This document shows positions 1,130 to 11,358 of a stretch of DNA of 11,358 nt, one piece after another (the stretch's first letter is position 1; each line of letters begins with the position of its first letter). The stretch lies in NCBI GenBank assembly GCA_030431355.1, contig JAUIJG010000156.1, positions 1 through 11,358 on the forward strand. Reading direction: 5' to 3'. The position numbers were made by a program, and so were the translations under genes. The notes beneath the pieces are model-generated. The model was not told where the DNA came from, ran no database searches, and was given only the letters and a program-made list of their open reading frames with translations. Source of the DNA: a bacterium (GTDB taxonomy: Bacteria; Cyanobacteriota; Vampirovibrionia; Obscuribacterales; Obscuribacteraceae).

Positions 1130-1570
1130 TCACTGTCCCTTGATCCGGGACCAGGTGCGTTCTGCCCGGTCTGCAACAAAGGGATTTTGGTCTCGCATCA
1201 AAATTTGAATAACCTCGCCGTCTAGATTATGATTTTCCGCCAGGTAATAGCGGATATCAACATCAGGATCAACAGCCAAGTTCAACAAGATTTCTCTGGG
1301 GGTGCTGAGATTATCAATCACCGCTTCTTTGACCCGGGATTCATAGTGTTCGCTCAACTCCGCCAACACATCAATGGGTGTGGACGGGTTTCCTGCCACC
1401 TTCTCAAGAATATCGGTATCCGAACTTATCAGAAACAACTCCAGTATAGCCCTGGGGGTTCCAGGATCCGATGCAATCAAACCAGGTGAAAATGATTCGA
1501 TCTCGAAAGGTAAATGGGTATCTACTTGAATCATGTATTCGCTCATGAAATTTTTTACTTTGGGATTCAT
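1130..1570 (-). CDS. Small LRV/HEAT-like repeat protein
   Basis: A 146-residue soluble protein built almost wholly from about 24-25-residue helical repeats of the variant leucine-rich repeat (LRV) type. The consensus is close to NPxTPxxxLxxLAxDxDxxVRxxVA. Examples are VAGNPSTPIDVLAELSEH (58-75), VIDNLSTPREILLNLAVDPD (84-103) and LAENHNLDGEVIQILMRD (110-127). A more degenerate first copy begins near SDPGTPRAILELFL (34-47). There is no signal peptide, membrane segment or cysteine, so it lacks the Fe-S cluster seen in the Azotobacter LRV protein. Such repeats normally form a protein-binding superhelix; the partner is unknown. The ATG at 1570 is chosen over later in-frame ATGs because a nine-base perfect SD lies 10-11 bases upstream. 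The gene stands alone between two long gaps. Its leader can fold over the SD. Confidence 0.8.
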   Translation of the reverse strand: MNPKVKNFMSEYMIQVDTHLPFEIESFSPGLIASDPGTPRAILELFLISSDTDILEKVAGNPSTPIDVLAELSEHYESRVKEAVIDNLSTPREILLNLAVDPDVDIRYYLAENHNLDGEVIQILMRDQNPFVADRAERTWSRIKGQ

Positions 1571-3666: not shown

Positions 3667-5403
3667 CTATCTTGTGGTAGTCGGGATAGCGCTGGTTGAA
3701 GGCAATATAGCACCGTCGAGGAACTCAGCAAAATCGCTTTTAAACTGTTTCAGCGAATCTTCCTTCACATACATCATGTGACCGCTGCGATAAAAACAAT
3801 GGCTCACGTTATCTCTGACCGAGGGATCGAGATACATGTGGTTTATGGTCTTCTTGGATGCGAAATAGGGAGTAGCAAGATCATAGTAGCCTGAACAAAT
3901 CAGCACCTTCAAGTATGGATTGCGGGTCATGGCTTTTCGCAAGTCTTCCGCCACGTTAAGATAGCGATTCTTAGCTCTGTTGTACTTCCATGGATTTACG
4001 TCAGCCAGAATTTCGTACGGCAACTCACTTTCAAACTGCAATTCGTTCTTCACATAGTGATTGAAAGTTGCAGTAAAGGGACCAGACACAGCCTCGAAAC
4101 TTGGATCATAATCATATCTCTCCGTACCGGGGAAGTACCTCAGACCGGTGTAGCGACTATCGAATCTGCCGATCTTACGATTTGAATTCATCAGCACGTG
4201 ATTGAAGTAAAGATCCGCAGAGACCCTGTAATTTAGCTGGGCTACATAATCGGGATCCAGCCCAATTAAACCTGCCAGTCTCCTGGAGATTGACCTCTTG
4301 CGCTCATCACTGATGGTGTCACCCTCATGAAGGGCTGATAGATAGTCATTGGAAGCGAACTCTTCCGCTTCTTTCAAAACAGCCTCAAGGGACTTACTCT
4401 GTAGATCAGGAGTGAGCTTTTTGTGATACCAGGCCGTCGCGGTATAAGAAGGCAGGAACATCACGAAGGGAAGATCGTTTCCTGGAGCGAAATCCAGGTT
4501 GGCAAAGTTGAGCACCGAAGAGACAAGAACGATTCCGTTCAAATAAATCGAGTAGCGATTTTGTAGATAGTTACTCAGTCCGGCCGCTCTTGTCGTACCG
4601 TAACTCTCACCTACAATAAACTTAGGCGACTGCCAACGATCGTACTTTGTAAGGTAGAGCCGAATAAATTCTCCCACGCTCTCAATGTCCGCTTTGTAGC
4701 CATGGTAGTTTTTGGGATCTTCATCAGGCTCTGAGCGGCTGAAACCGGTAGAGACAGGATCTATAAAGACAAGGTCAGTTTTGTCCAGCCAGGAATATGG
4801 GTTCTCTTCTAAACGATAGGGCGGAGGTGGAGCTTCTCCTGCGCTCGTTAGAACGGCTTTTTTCGGACCAAGGGCACCCATGTGTAACCAGACCGATGCC
4901 GAACCGGGACCACCGTTAAATGAAAATGAGACAGGTCGCCTGTCCGCCTTGTCTGAGCCCACTACTTCATAAGCAATAAAGAAAACCCGAGCCTTCTTCT
5001 TATGCTCTTCTTTACCAGAAGCTTTCTTGGCGCTAGAACCCTTATCGTCGTCGGAATCCCTGGCTCCGGAATTCTTCTTGGGATCCGGCTGATAGTCTTT
5101 CAAAAACATATAGCCGGCGGTGGCACGATAGTTGACCTTCTTTCCGTTGATTATCACTGAATGCTCGGTGACGGAGATCTTAGAATCATCTTTGTCGTCG
5201 CTCTTTTCAGAATCTTTGGCAATAGAGTTATCTTTATCTCTGCTTCCCGATGATCCGACTTTCTTTTTCAGGGAATTGGAAGCGCCCAGCGCATCGGGCG
5301 ACAATCCGATTTGAAAAATCAGGACGAAAGAGACAAGGAAGCTTCTCAAACTTTTCGACTTGAGAAGATGAAATAGTTTCACGGGAAAAGAAGTTGAATA
5401 CAT
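3667..5403 (-). CDS. Secreted serine carboxypeptidase, peptidase family S10
   Basis: Alpha/beta-hydrolase serine carboxypeptidase of 578 residues, predicted to trim C-terminal residues from peptides outside the cytoplasmic membrane. A signal peptide is clear: basic residues to 20, hydrophobic core 21-34, likely cleavage after ALG at 40. The oxyanion-hole segment FSFNGGPGSAS is at 160-170. The triad is complete: Ser267 in GESYG, Asp508 in SGYYDLATP and His542 in RSGHMMY. DPVSTGFS (215-222) is another S10 hallmark. Two Lys/Ser/Asp-rich low-complexity stretches (about 42-76 and 106-137) precede the core and look disordered. A longer frame begins with TTG at 5436, but the ATG at 5403 is preferred: it has GGAG six bases upstream and places the signal peptide normally. 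The gene is monocistronic, convergent with the small gene ending at 3522. Confidence 0.92.
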   Translation of the reverse strand: MYSTSFPVKLFHLLKSKSLRSFLVSFVLIFQIGLSPDALGASNSLKKKVGSSGSRDKDNSIAKDSEKSDDKDDSKISVTEHSVIINGKKVNYRATAGYMFLKDYQPDPKKNSGARDSDDDKGSSAKKASGKEEHKKKARVFFIAYEVVGSDKADRRPVSFSFNGGPGSASVWLHMGALGPKKAVLTSAGEAPPPPYRLEENPYSWLDKTDLVFIDPVSTGFSRSEPDEDPKNYHGYKADIESVGEFIRLYLTKYDRWQSPKFIVGESYGTTRAAGLSNYLQNRYSIYLNGIVLVSSVLNFANLDFAPGNDLPFVMFLPSYTATAWYHKKLTPDLQSKSLEAVLKEAEEFASNDYLSALHEGDTISDERKRSISRRLAGLIGLDPDYVAQLNYRVSADLYFNHVLMNSNRKIGRFDSRYTGLRYFPGTERYDYDPSFEAVSGPFTATFNHYVKNELQFESELPYEILADVNPWKYNRAKNRYLNVAEDLRKAMTRNPYLKVLICSGYYDLATPYFASKKTINHMYLDPSVRDNVSHCFYRSGHMMYVKEDSLKQFKSDFAEFLDGAILPSTSAIPTTTR

Positions 5404-5409
5404 CCGGGT

Positions 5410-5414
5410 CTCCA
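5410..5414 (-). promoter_or_regulatory. Ribosome binding site deciding the S10 peptidase start
   Basis: The minus strand reads TGGAG, six bases before the ATG at 5403. This spacing is near ideal, whereas the upstream TTG at 5436 has no such site. Confidence 0.6.
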
Positions 5415-5533
5415 GATCGCTTTGTATTACCAGCAAGAAGGGCTAGTCCCAGCCTTCTCTTGACAGCGTCTCCGGCAGCACCGTAGACGAGAGTGAGGAC
5501 GATGGGACAGAATACAGCCTTATGGAAGAAGAG

Positions 5534-6747: not shown

Positions 6748-8487
6748 ATGGTTCGAAAAGCCTCCCTGGAGAAAGCCAGCAAACAGTGGCTGAAATACAA
6801 GGAATCCGCTGACAAAGCGATTAGTGAGGGTAATTATGAACTGTCCGAGTCCGTTCTCTTTGCGGCATTGACTGAAGCCCAGGACTATTTCAATGAGACT
6901 GATTTTCAGTATTTATACACCCTGGAGAAGCTTGTCCAGTCCTTATGGTTTCTTGGGCGCTTCGATGAAGCCATTGAGCACTGCCAGAAACTTGTAGACA
7001 TTCATGAGAAAAATGCGAATGAAGTAGAGCCTGTATCCAGGCTGAGCTATACCATCAACCTTGCCATGGTTTATCATGCCGCCAGAGAATATTCCTTGTC
7101 CGATGCCTGTTACGATAAAGCCACCAACCAAGGTATTGAAATTTTTGGTGGAAGCCATGTCATTGTTGAGAAAATAATGGGTCTGCACGCAGACTTGCTG
7201 GACAAAGCTGGTATGCAGGAGAAACTTGCCAACCTGGGAACGATACCGAAAGTAATCACCACAAGTGATTGGCTTCCCAGTGAGGTTCTGCGAATGATCA
7301 AAGATTCCCTTGGTCAGGAAGTAGTTCAACAACAGCCAAGCTCCGGTTCTGCCGGCTCGGACTCATCGGCACTGAGATCGGCACCACCGTCTCTCAGACA
7401 AAATGGCAGCCCCTTTAAATTGCCTCCAAGTTCCACAGACATAAAACCGCAATCGCCTCCTCCTCCTCCGCAGATCAAGGAGACAATCGGTTCAAGCAAC
7501 CAGTCCGGCAACATGATAGAGAGACTGCAAAGGGTCTCCGGACAGTCCCGCTCTCAAAACACACCTCCTCCGCTGCCGGACGCGGACGATAACTCAGCAG
7601 AAGAGATAGAGACAAATCTGCCACCAACATCATATACGGTATCAGTCAATCCTGGTCCCGGAGAGATCGCTGTTTGCTTGTCAAAGGCAGAGGCGGAAGC
7701 AATATTTTTGAGCAATCAACATACAGCCAGGTCGAACCAGGACTCCGGCGATATAGAAGTTGCGGTCCTTTTACATTCCATAAATTTAAAACTTTTGGAC
7801 AGATTAGGTTTGAAGAATGAGATGCTTCTAGAAACCATAGACGCGCTCATACAATTGAAGCAGCATATGGGTCTGAACAAAGAGGCGGTCGACCTGGCCA
7901 GATCATCTTTCGAACTAAAAAAAGACCTTCTCTCCGAAGAGAATATCGAAGTGGCCCATTCCGCCAACAAGCTGGCCGGCCTATATTACAGCCTCGGCTA
8001 TTTGGAAGAAGCGGTCGAGTTGTCGGAGTACTGCCTCAAACTTTATACCGATCTGCTGGGTGTTGAGCATGCCAGTGTGGCAAGCAGTCTGCACAATTTG
8101 GCCACTCTTTATCACGTACAAAAAAAATACGAGTTGGCTGAGTCTAAATACAAAGAGTGCCTGGAGCTGAAAAATAGGATCTTCGGGTCCAATCATCCAT
8201 CCACATCCAGACTTTTGAAAAGCTACGCGGAGCTGTTACGTGAAACCCATAGAGAAGCAGAAGCGGAGCATATGAGCACCATGGCCATGGGCATGATTAC
8301 CGGTTCCTGGAAATCAATTACAGAAGAAGACCTTGCCCAGAAAGACAACGCGCCGGCCGCCACCGGCGAAGCAGAAGAAGAGCTTTGTGAAAATTGCAAA
8401 CTTCCCACGGAAGGTCAGGCTACATGCAAGATCTGCGGTCATAAATCCAGAAGACGATCCACGGCCTCATTCGGCGACCTTAAGTAG
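6748..8487 (+). CDS. TPR protein with Pro-rich linker and C-terminal zinc ribbon
   Basis: A 579-residue soluble protein with no signal peptide or membrane helix. An N-terminal helical TPR block spans about 5-160 (for example LVQSLWFLGRFDEAIEHCQK). A low-complexity Ser/Pro/Gln linker spans about 193-300, including five consecutive prolines near 237-241. A second TPR block of kinesin-light-chain type spans about 335-515; its repeats are typified by VEHASVASSLHNLATLYHVQ and KYELAESKYKECLELKNRIFG. The C-terminus has a zinc ribbon, Cys547-x2-Cys550-x9-Cys560-x2-Cys563, then a basic tail. TPRs bind peptides or proteins, so an adaptor role is likely; the partner is unknown. The ATG has AAGGA seven bases upstream and a candidate promoter. 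The pseudokinase gene follows 168 bp downstream on the same strand, making it a candidate partner. Confidence 0.85.
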   Translation: MVRKASLEKASKQWLKYKESADKAISEGNYELSESVLFAALTEAQDYFNETDFQYLYTLEKLVQSLWFLGRFDEAIEHCQKLVDIHEKNANEVEPVSRLSYTINLAMVYHAAREYSLSDACYDKATNQGIEIFGGSHVIVEKIMGLHADLLDKAGMQEKLANLGTIPKVITTSDWLPSEVLRMIKDSLGQEVVQQQPSSGSAGSDSSALRSAPPSLRQNGSPFKLPPSSTDIKPQSPPPPPQIKETIGSSNQSGNMIERLQRVSGQSRSQNTPPPLPDADDNSAEEIETNLPPTSYTVSVNPGPGEIAVCLSKAEAEAIFLSNQHTARSNQDSGDIEVAVLLHSINLKLLDRLGLKNEMLLETIDALIQLKQHMGLNKEAVDLARSSFELKKDLLSEENIEVAHSANKLAGLYYSLGYLEEAVELSEYCLKLYTDLLGVEHASVASSLHNLATLYHVQKKYELAESKYKECLELKNRIFGSNHPSTSRLLKSYAELLRETHREAEAEHMSTMAMGMITGSWKSITEEDLAQKDNAPAATGEAEEELCENCKLPTEGQATCKICGHKSRRRSTASFGDLK

Positions 8488-8521: not shown

Positions 8522-8554
8522 TATGGGACCCTCGTTAAAAATCGCGGTCCCATA
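8522..8554. repeat. Perfect 9-bp inverted repeat between the TPR and pseudokinase genes
   Basis: TATGGGACC (8522-8530) and GGTCCCATA (8546-8554) are perfect complements around a 15-base loop. No T-run follows the right arm, so a classical intrinsic terminator is not supported; it may be an mRNA-stabilising 3' hairpin or an operator. The upstream bases GACCCTC and AAAAAT recur inside the element. Confidence 0.5.
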
Positions 8555-8580: not shown

Positions 8581-8609
8581 TGAATATATTCTGCTAGATT
8601 GAATATATT
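8581..8609 (+). repeat. Duplicated TGAATATATT box upstream of the pseudokinase
   Basis: The ten bases TGAATATATT occur at 8581-8590 and again at 8600-8609, 19 bp apart, 47-75 bp before the preferred ATG. They may be two AT-rich protein-binding sites or part of a promoter. No well-spaced -35/-10 pair was found here. Confidence 0.4.
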
Positions 8610-8655
8610 AAGGGCACAATTATCTATAAGAAATAACTATTTTAGTTTTTTGAAT

Positions 8656-11325
8656 ATGGCAGGCAGCGAAGACAATCTCCAGGACGCTGAGACTCAAACG
8701 GAGTCTTCCTATGACGTTCGCTATGAAATCAAGACAGCCGATTTGCCCGAAGGCGTTATCGAAGCCTTTGACAGCGAAACTCGTCAGTTAGTCCATATAA
8801 AACCTCTCCCTGAATTCAGCCAGGAGGAGGCGGAAGAAGATTTCCTCCCCCAGGCGGAGCTGGTGGCAAAGTTGAAGCACCAGAATCTCATCCGCGTAAT
8901 GGACTATGGCATCAATGCTGACAGAGTCGCCTTCCTTGTCTTCGAGAAATTTGAAGGGACAAATCTCCGTGATTTCATTAAGGACAACGGTCCCCTGGAG
9001 ATTGAGAAGGCTATTGATTTTTCCATAAAAGCGATCGAAGGACTCAAATACCTTCATGGCAAAGGCGTTATGCACGGCAGCATTTCTCTTCTCAATGTCC
9101 ACCCGTTCAGGGAATTGAAGAGCATGCCCTTGAATCTTAAAATCAGCGGACTACTCGATATCTATCCAAACGAGTATCGCGAGTACGAAGAAGATTCCCT
9201 TACCGTAGAACCTTTCTACAGTCCGGAGCAACTGGAGACAGAGCAGGCCGATTTCAGAACTGACGTATTTTCACTCGGCTGTTTGATCTACTCGGTGATC
9301 ACAGGACACAGTCCGGACATGGAAGCCCTTTATCAGGCCAATGATAGCGAAGAGATCCTGGCGGTAGTTCAAAGTGAGCAGATACCGACAGGACTGGAGA
9401 GCATCATTGAAAAGTGTGTCGCCAGAGAACCAGATGAGCGCTTCCAGGATCTCAGCGAGTTATTGGGAGCATTGAAAGCGGTAAAGCTCTCCACTAAGAA
9501 AAAGTCAGCTGGGGATAAGATTGAGAAGCCTTCGAAAAAAGAAGACAATGAGAATGAAAGTTCAATCGAAGTCCCACAAATAGATGATCTACTCGCTCTA
9601 GATGAACTGGAAGATGAGCAAATTGTAGATGACAAACAAGTTTCAGATGATGTCGTCGATGAATCCGAAATTAAAGAGGAAGGCGATGCTCCAGTTCAAG
9701 AAGAGGCAAAAGAGGCAAAAGAGCCAGAGAATCTTGAAGAAGAAGATGATGATGAAGGATCTAAGGAAGATTTACCAGAATCCGATGAGCTTGAATTAGA
9801 AGCCGAGGATACAACATTCTCCGAGGAGGCAGAAGCCGATTCAGAAGAAGAAAGCGAAGAAGAATCACCAAATGAGTCTTCAGATAAGTCTTCAGATGAA
9901 TCGGGGTCCGAAGGGGCCGTAGAAGATGTCGAAGAAGAAGTATCGAAAAACAATACCATAGAAGATTTAAAAGATGATATCGAAGAAGAGTCTGAATCGG
10001 CAAAGGAAACAGATTCGCTGCAAGAATCGTACGATAGAGACGATAAGGAAGATCAAGAAGAGCTTATTGAGCTTGACCAGGACAAGCCGGAAGAGCCAGA
10101 AAAAGAGGCAGAGTCCGAAACAGAGACAGTATTAGAAACCGAGTCGAAAGAAGAGGACGAGGACGACGGTGAACCAGGTCATTCAGTCGAAAAAGAGTTG
10201 GATGAAGAAGAGAAGAAAGTACTTCTAGCCAACCTGTTTGCCGGAGAAGCCGAATTTCCAGAAGAGCCCGAATTCGAAACTGAGTCAGATCCGGCCCATA
10301 AAGAAGAGAAAGTAGACGAGAAGGATCTGGAGAGCACCATCAAAGATATCTCGGTTCCTGCTGAAGCGCTGGATGAGCCCGAGGTAAAGAGCTCCGCCAT
10401 CGAAGAAGATTTAGATGAGAAAAAGCTAGAAAGTACCTTGATGGAGATTCCGGTATTTGAAGCGTCTCTAACAGAGAGCCTCTCGCCGGAAGAGCCTCAG
10501 GATCAACTGGAAGAAGAAATTGTCAAAAAATCTCCCGAAGTGGAAGAGCAAGAGAAGCTCGAAAGCACTTTGATGGAAATTCCTGTATTCGAAGCTCCGC
10601 TCACTGACTCATTAGTCTCCGACAGCGATTCCACTTCAATGAAAGAGGTAGAAGCCGGTAAAGAAGAAGACCTGTTATCGAAAGAAGAGCAGGAAAAGTT
10701 AGAGAGCACCCTGATGGAGATCCCGGTCTTCGAAGAATCACTCACCTCTGTCGCTCCACCGGATTCGCTGCTTAGTACAGATAAGACAGAGAAGCAGAAT
10801 CTCTCCGAGAATGAAAGAAGGCTGAGCAAGACCCTGACTGAAATTCCAGCCTTCGACGCTGAGCTTTCCCTCACCCAACCACCCCAACCCGAAGAGCAGG
10901 CACCGGTTAGGGAGCCGGCAAGCAACGTCAAAAATACCGGATCCTTGAGGAGCCTGATAGACAAAAGTGGCAAGCAAAGCTCTTCAACTATTAAAAAGTT
11001 CACCGGCAAACCAAGGGTAAACGCTGCCGGAATTCAAATAAATGATTCCGAACCGGAACCAGGCACTACCGGCGACGGGGTTCAGTTGACCCTTCCCCAG
11101 GAGATCGAAGACAGCACAAATAGTCTCGAAGACCAGATAAATCAAGATCGTCAGAAGTTGGAAGAAAGCCTCGAAGATTCGACAACGCCCGATCCGAACG
11201 CTTCGCCGGGTGCATCGCCCGCCGATCCGAATGCCCCACTAAGTCCGGTAGATGGTTCCGATATTCCGCAAACAAATGACGGAACGCAGACAACTCCGCC
11301 GCCGCCGTCAGACTCCGATATTTAA
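8656..11325 (+). CDS. Predicted Ser/Thr pseudokinase with long acidic repeat tail
   Basis: An 889-residue soluble protein. Residues about 20-280 follow the bacterial Hanks-type kinase fold: VHIK with Lys49, FLPQAELVAKLKHQNL (63-78), an SPE at the APE position (189-191), DVFSLG (203-208) and Arg262. The catalytic features are gone. There is no GxGxxG loop, the alphaC Glu is Gln66, HRD is HGS (140-142), the catalytic-loop Lys is Ser144, and DFG is replaced by residues without Asp near 164-167. About 290-720 is extremely Glu/Asp/Ser-rich and surely disordered. Five KLESTLMEIPVFE-type motifs begin at 557, 590, 634, 681 and 722. The end is Pro/Asp-rich. A TTG at 8599 would add 19 residues; the ATG at 8656 is preferred because the extension is AT-rich non-conserved sequence, though neither start has a good SD. 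Likely a binding scaffold. Confidence 0.82.
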   Translation: MAGSEDNLQDAETQTESSYDVRYEIKTADLPEGVIEAFDSETRQLVHIKPLPEFSQEEAEEDFLPQAELVAKLKHQNLIRVMDYGINADRVAFLVFEKFEGTNLRDFIKDNGPLEIEKAIDFSIKAIEGLKYLHGKGVMHGSISLLNVHPFRELKSMPLNLKISGLLDIYPNEYREYEEDSLTVEPFYSPEQLETEQADFRTDVFSLGCLIYSVITGHSPDMEALYQANDSEEILAVVQSEQIPTGLESIIEKCVAREPDERFQDLSELLGALKAVKLSTKKKSAGDKIEKPSKKEDNENESSIEVPQIDDLLALDELEDEQIVDDKQVSDDVVDESEIKEEGDAPVQEEAKEAKEPENLEEEDDDEGSKEDLPESDELELEAEDTTFSEEAEADSEEESEEESPNESSDKSSDESGSEGAVEDVEEEVSKNNTIEDLKDDIEEESESAKETDSLQESYDRDDKEDQEELIELDQDKPEEPEKEAESETETVLETESKEEDEDDGEPGHSVEKELDEEEKKVLLANLFAGEAEFPEEPEFETESDPAHKEEKVDEKDLESTIKDISVPAEALDEPEVKSSAIEEDLDEKKLESTLMEIPVFEASLTESLSPEEPQDQLEEEIVKKSPEVEEQEKLESTLMEIPVFEAPLTDSLVSDSDSTSMKEVEAGKEEDLLSKEEQEKLESTLMEIPVFEESLTSVAPPDSLLSTDKTEKQNLSENERRLSKTLTEIPAFDAELSLTQPPQPEEQAPVREPASNVKNTGSLRSLIDKSGKQSSSTIKKFTGKPRVNAAGIQINDSEPEPGTTGDGVQLTLPQEIEDSTNSLEDQINQDRQKLEESLEDSTTPDPNASPGASPADPNAPLSPVDGSDIPQTNDGTQTTPPPPSDSDI
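10324..10857 (+). repeat. Five spaced copies of a 13-residue coding motif
   Basis: Copies lie at 10324-10362, 10423-10461, 10555-10593, 10696-10734 and 10819-10857, spaced 33, 44, 47 and 41 codons apart within the acidic tail. Copies 2-4 encode exactly KLESTLMEIPVFE. Copy 1 is divergent (DLESTIKDISVPA) and copy 5 is RLSKTLTEIPAFD. Pairs of the three identical copies differ at 6-8 of 13 codons, all synonymously. The spacers between them are not conserved. Confidence 0.9.
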
Positions 11326-11337
11326 ATAGGTTTTATT

Positions 11338-11358
11338 ATGAAATATCAAAAAATTCTA
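11338..11358 (+). CDS. Possible start of a downstream gene (truncated by the window)
   Basis: An ATG twelve bases after the pseudokinase stop opens a frame of seven codons (MKYQKIL) to the window edge. TAGG lies 7 bases upstream as a weak ribosome site. The short spacing suggests co-transcription with the pseudokinase. Too little is visible to name the product. Confidence 0.35.

Follow-up and report, generated by a model that had tools for sequence, protein, structure and literature searches.

The DNA analysed here, a window of 11,358 nucleotides, carries towards its right end a 908-amino acid open reading frame on the forward strand (8599..11325; ORF list and alignment A1), whose true start is likely the ATG at 8656 (residue 20), the position at which the orthologues P0002 and P0003 begin. 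The encoded protein is composed of a kinase-fold domain lacking catalytic residues (residues 51-283; 8749..9447), a long acidic linker (residues 301-843; 9499..11127, delimited by composition), and a C-terminal stretch of 65 residues (11128..11322), all on the forward strand. Upstream and on the same strand lies a gene for a TPR_12 protein (6748-8487) whose middle is rich in Pro and Ser and whose C-terminal CxxC...CxxC arrangement looks like a zinc ribbon. Between the two genes there is a perfect 9-bp inverted repeat at 8522-8554 (TATGGGACC/GGTCCCATA, 15-nt loop), with no T run after it. The window also contains the end of a class I fumarase (3-806), an LRV-repeat protein (1130-1570, reverse strand), a DUF1963 protein (2060-2938), and a serine carboxypeptidase of family S10 (3667-5436, reverse strand; PF00450, E 1.4e-19), a family that is uncommon in bacteria.

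The N-terminal domain matches Pfam PF07714 (E 4.9e-23), and its structural model, with a pLDDT of 79.6, has a Foldseek match to PknB. The closest solved structures are PknB 3f61_A by sequence (E 7e-20) and 4eqm_A by fold (E 5.2e-16). We compared its residues with those of 35 kinases in alignment A3, which holds 35 of the 58 proteins obtained with a kinase-domain search; a further alignment of 41 sequences, A2, was dropped because its conserved kinase columns missed the window kinase domain. Two Gly-loop glycines are replaced by K and A, the alpha-C Glu by Q, the R-D of the HRD motif by G-S and the catalytic-loop Lys by S, all of these being positions that are kept in 34 or 35 of the 35 compared kinases, and no DFG was found at or near the aligned columns. 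The ATP-site Lys and the catalytic-loop Asn are retained. An active Hanks-type Ser/Thr kinase was rejected on the loss of the Gly-loop glycines, the alpha-C Glu, the HRD Asp, and the DFG. To judge from sequence and model, the domain is pseudokinase-like, that is, a kinase fold whose catalytic residues have been lost. This kinase fold is new relative to the original prediction, which dealt with the repeats in the tail.

The linker is an acidic chain, as had been proposed, with D and E making up 44% of residues 301-560 and 29% of residues 561-770. Five copies of a short motif lie at 10324..10857 on the forward strand, exactly where they had been placed. Copy 1 is diverged and lacks IPxF (core 10324..10362, by motif mapping); copies 2, 3, and 4 each sit in a 62-nt repeat unit (10411..10472, core 10423-10461; 10543..10604, core 10555-10593; 10684..10745, core 10696-10734); and copy 5 is diverged with TLxEIPxF kept (core 10819..10857, by motif mapping). 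The DNA repeat in copies 2-4 therefore spans 62 nt (21 amino acids) and not 13 amino acids. All five copies share the pattern L..T[LI].[DE]I, which copies 2-5 extend with P-x-F-[DE]; the shared pattern, which was defined after the copies had been seen, is expected 0.0038 times per shuffled tail. Relative to copies 2-4, copy 1 differs at 7/13 residues and copy 5 at 6/13. The core start-to-start distances are 33, 44, 47, and 41 residues, so that the regular spacing described originally holds only roughly. The helical hydrophobic moment of the motif stretches falls at percentiles 83-100 of the tail, and the spacers between copies 2-5 differ from one another at 15-18 of 21 residues within the protein.

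The cores of copies 2, 3, and 4 are identical at 13/13 residues, and their codons differ, always synonymously, at 6/13 (copies 2/3), 7/13 (2/4), and 8/13 (3/4) positions, in agreement with the initial description. Third codon positions account for 6/6, 5/7, and 7/9 of the nucleotide differences in these same pairs. A random draw from the gene's own codon usage would lead one to expect differences at 7.6/13 codons. Since the observed 6-8 differences are close to this value, the synonymous sites of copies 2-4 are near saturation, which bears out the proposed old duplication and led us to reject a recent duplication of the DNA. A comparison of dN with dS between copies, which had been put forward as a check, gave an answer in part: dN by NG86 is 0, 0, and 0.03 for pairs 2/3, 2/4, and 3/4, and dS is not computable at these sites. 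The value of 0.03 in a pair without any residue difference is presumably an effect of averaging over the paths of a two-step change.

A search with the motif region matched one protein at E 10 among 4870 candidates, P0001 (1294 amino acids), a close relative that is 83% identical and retains all five copies in the same order and place. Between the two proteins 62/65 core residues are identical, as against 91/114 (80%) in the spacers (Fisher p 0.004), 49/130 in linker residues 301-430, and 291/300 in the kinase part. The L, T, [LI], [DE], and I positions are kept in 10/10 copies of the two proteins taken together, and in 10/10 the Thr is accompanied by an acidic residue at +3. The purifying selection on the peptide that had been predicted is thus evident between species. 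The spacers had been thought to vary freely, a view we reject in view of their 91/114 identity to P0001: they too are constrained between species, less so than the cores. The peptide array is real, is under purifying selection and is a lineage-restricted form, the motif being known from two sequences only, the window protein and P0001, which are close to each other at 83%. It might be supposed that the array is a tolerated repeat expansion without function, as its lineage restriction and its low-complexity acidic surroundings would allow. However, three of the copies have saturated synonymous sites and not a single replacement, which, together with the conservation in P0001, speaks against this explanation, which was already disfavoured and which we regard as very improbable.

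The two kinase domains of P0001, used as queries, retrieved 58 and 89 proteins, the second search being limited in its scoring to the 7992 candidates with most words in common. P0001-P0004 alone stand out in both searches, the remaining kinases being about 22-36% identical. In the first kinase domain P0002 and P0003 are identical to the window protein at 159/262 and 156/262 residues, respectively; P0004 is truncated in this domain. The source label of P0004 reads Cyanobacteriota/Melainabacteria group, in which the window may likewise be placed. A loose form of the motif, which requires IP and so misses copy 1, was found besides the window in 1 of the 143 retrieved proteins, namely P0001, and the motif is absent from 3/3 further orthologues (P0002-P0004; alignment A1). 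The original prediction had counted homologues without the motif against it, and this objection holds in part, with the nearest, P0001, keeping five copies and the other three having none. No orthologue was found among 257 candidate stretches in a scan of genome contigs, and a second such scan (78 stretches) gave no orthologue and only one Planctomycetota kinase, 29% identical. Among 139 stretches of viral contigs there was no orthologue and there were 0 exact matches to the back-translated core. Searching the motif region by tblastn gave nothing in plasmids and nothing in phages, and a PDB sequence search with copies 2-4 returned a single match that looks like chance (E 0.21).

Beyond the linker, P0001-P0004 have a second kinase domain, each protein having two Pfam stretches, and HGNLRPSN and LDFG are present in 4/4; the hydrophobic stretch after this domain may be a membrane helix. 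These relatives are the basis for the two-domain layout, because the window reading frame ends before a second kinase domain. Within the same linker, each of P0002-P0004 carries DF[KR] three times (DF[KR].I in two of the three), and 0/5000 shuffles reach three in each. Because we selected this pattern by eye, and because the three proteins are closely related, the DF[KR] array counts as one observation. With both kinase domains kept on either side of it, the linker thus looks like a home of repeated motifs. It is possible, although we hold it only tentatively, that the scaffold swaps whole multivalent motif arrays between lineages, five L..TL.EIPxF units in one and three DF[KR] in the other, each with its own set of partners. 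If so, the L..TL.EIPxF unit would be an undescribed class of linear motif; we know of no description of it, the literature consulted being on related themes rather than on the motif letters.

Co-linear patches in the linkers of P0002-P0004 resemble the window linker, with the window patches falling singly below the 95% shuffle level, and a cruder patch scoring gave the same outcome as the shuffle-tested one. The patch NESSIEVPQIDDLL (9553..9594, forward strand) has a counterpart in P0002-P0004 and is found in the best six linker matches of all three comparisons, below the 95% shuffle level. The patch DEEEKKVLLANLFA (10201..10242, forward strand) matches P0003 and P0004 below the shuffle level, and its region, residues 531-560, is identical to P0001 at 29/30 positions. 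The patch TGDGVQLTLPQEIE (11068..11109, forward strand; alignment A1 and linker comparison) precedes the place of the relatives' second kinase domain. In the comparisons of linker patches between clades, PQEIEDSTDSIGIA of P0001 is the sole patch above the 95% shuffle level, in 3/3 comparisons. After residue 843 the window protein parts from P0001, to which its last 65 residues are identical at only 12/65 positions, and then stops; either the gene is split at this point or the contig end misleads. The last nucleotides of the window (11338-11358) hold seven codons of a next frame, MKYQKIL, which resembles NSYQKLQ, where the second kinase domain of P0001 begins, and are too few to judge. The AlphaFold2 model of the whole protein, built from 5 sequences, places a short helix with low confidence at each of the five copies. 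This model is poor (mean pLDDT 38.4), and disorder of the tail and short helices at the copies are for that reason weakly supported.

The proposal that the peptide is a docking or phospho-acceptor motif seems to be supported as a class only. Within this class, we consider it somewhat probable (about 0.55) that the motif copies form an array for multivalent docking, carried by a pseudokinase scaffold that would collect several copies of one partner protein. The scaffold would be built on a kinase fold that, on its residues, is predicted to lack catalysis, and its acidic linker would carry five units of about 21 residues, each with a short amphipathic stretch that is probably helix-prone. Each unit would most likely bind one molecule of a common partner. 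In the relatives, two degenerate kinase domains flank the linker, and the apparent membrane helix comes after the second of them, so that the array may be exposed on the inner side of the membrane. Against a docking array stand the three further orthologues without the motif and the lack of the IPxF half in copy 1. Pseudokinase grooves are common docking places, and the motifs are on the same chain as the kinase fold, so that they might instead fold back onto the kinase-fold domains as an intramolecular regulation. The models gave no docking information, and one domain does not need five copies; we regard such self-docking as improbable. A docking array would be of interest in that the selection on a five-copy bacterial motif can be read within a single gene, and in that the sister clade, having the same domains but another array, offers a control ready to hand. 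To our knowledge, bacteria have been explored far less than eukaryotes for linear motifs and multivalent scaffolds, which are well charted in the latter.

The motif Thr may serve as a phospho-switch set by a different kinase, since the first kinase domain of the protein itself appears to be inactive. In a partner-specific form of the docking array, a kinase of the cell would phosphorylate the threonines and FHA-domain proteins would bind them. The acidic residue at +3 in all ten copies is in keeping with this, given an FHA1-pTXXD complex cited by title in PMC3146460, and there is a precedent in MviN, where PknB phosphorylates the pseudokinase tail and FhaA is recruited by it (excerpts of PMC12599244). 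However, the first kinase domain is degenerate, the hydrophobic residues of the motif are conserved as well as the Thr, and a limited literature search gave no published preference of bacterial FHA domains for an acid at +3; this form of the array is possible and rather doubtful. The TPR protein encoded just upstream (6748-8487), with its TPR_12 domains, could also be the partner for which the motifs are docking sites, its gene being adjacent and on the same strand. About 170 nt and the 9-bp inverted repeat separate the two genes, which makes co-transcription no more than a possibility, and we think this pairing unlikely.

With regard to known systems, the TPR pairing would resemble kinesin light chain, whose TPRs bind short acidic peptides of the W- and Y-acidic type (excerpts of PMC6214655), in having a TPR_12 neighbour upstream and acidic peptides. 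Known ligands of kinesin light chain centre on Trp or Tyr, whereas neither residue occurs in any of the five copies. A likeness to the FtsZ C-terminal peptide was also considered, in which the motifs would mimic that peptide and compete for, or gather, FtsZ-binding division proteins. Both are short conserved peptides in a variable linker, and [DE]IPxF occurs in 4/5 copies, as in E. coli FtsZ (LDIPAF), a match that arises once in 160/20000 shuffled tails; moreover, the FtsZ peptide is weak alone and strengthened by multivalency (excerpts of PMC12607630). However, the copies are internal and repeated, copy 1 is without [DE]IPxF, copy 5 has a Thr instead of a hydrophobic residue before the acid, and the copies read FEA, FEE, or FDA, where FtsZ has Leu-Arg-Lys after the Phe. 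The Leu and Lys, which are contacts in the FtsZ-ZapC model (excerpts of PMC12607630), are thereby replaced by acidic or small residues, and mimicry of FtsZ is hardly to be expected. The PASTA-type kinases PknB and Stk1 are the closest solved structures by sequence and fold, but they differ from the window protein in that the latter has lost the catalytic residues; its score of 100.6 bits is far below the PknB_PASTA_kin cut-off of 450 bits, and P0001-P0004 have no PASTA match at E 0.1. A MurJ/MviN part is absent from the Pfam hits of P0001-P0004 at E 0.1 and of the window protein, whose reading frame ends early, at E 0.001. The mycobacterial MviN, of the ActPs3 family, shares with the scaffold proposed here a dead Hanks-type fold, a membrane-associated protein and a tail serving as a recruiting platform (excerpts of PMC12599244). 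It differs in that the window protein keeps the ATP-site Lys, where a table of PMC12599244 gives VALT for MviN, and has a long acidic linker with five motif copies. By analogy, MviN would be the nearest published way of working for the multivalent docking array, a matter of likeness and not of membership.
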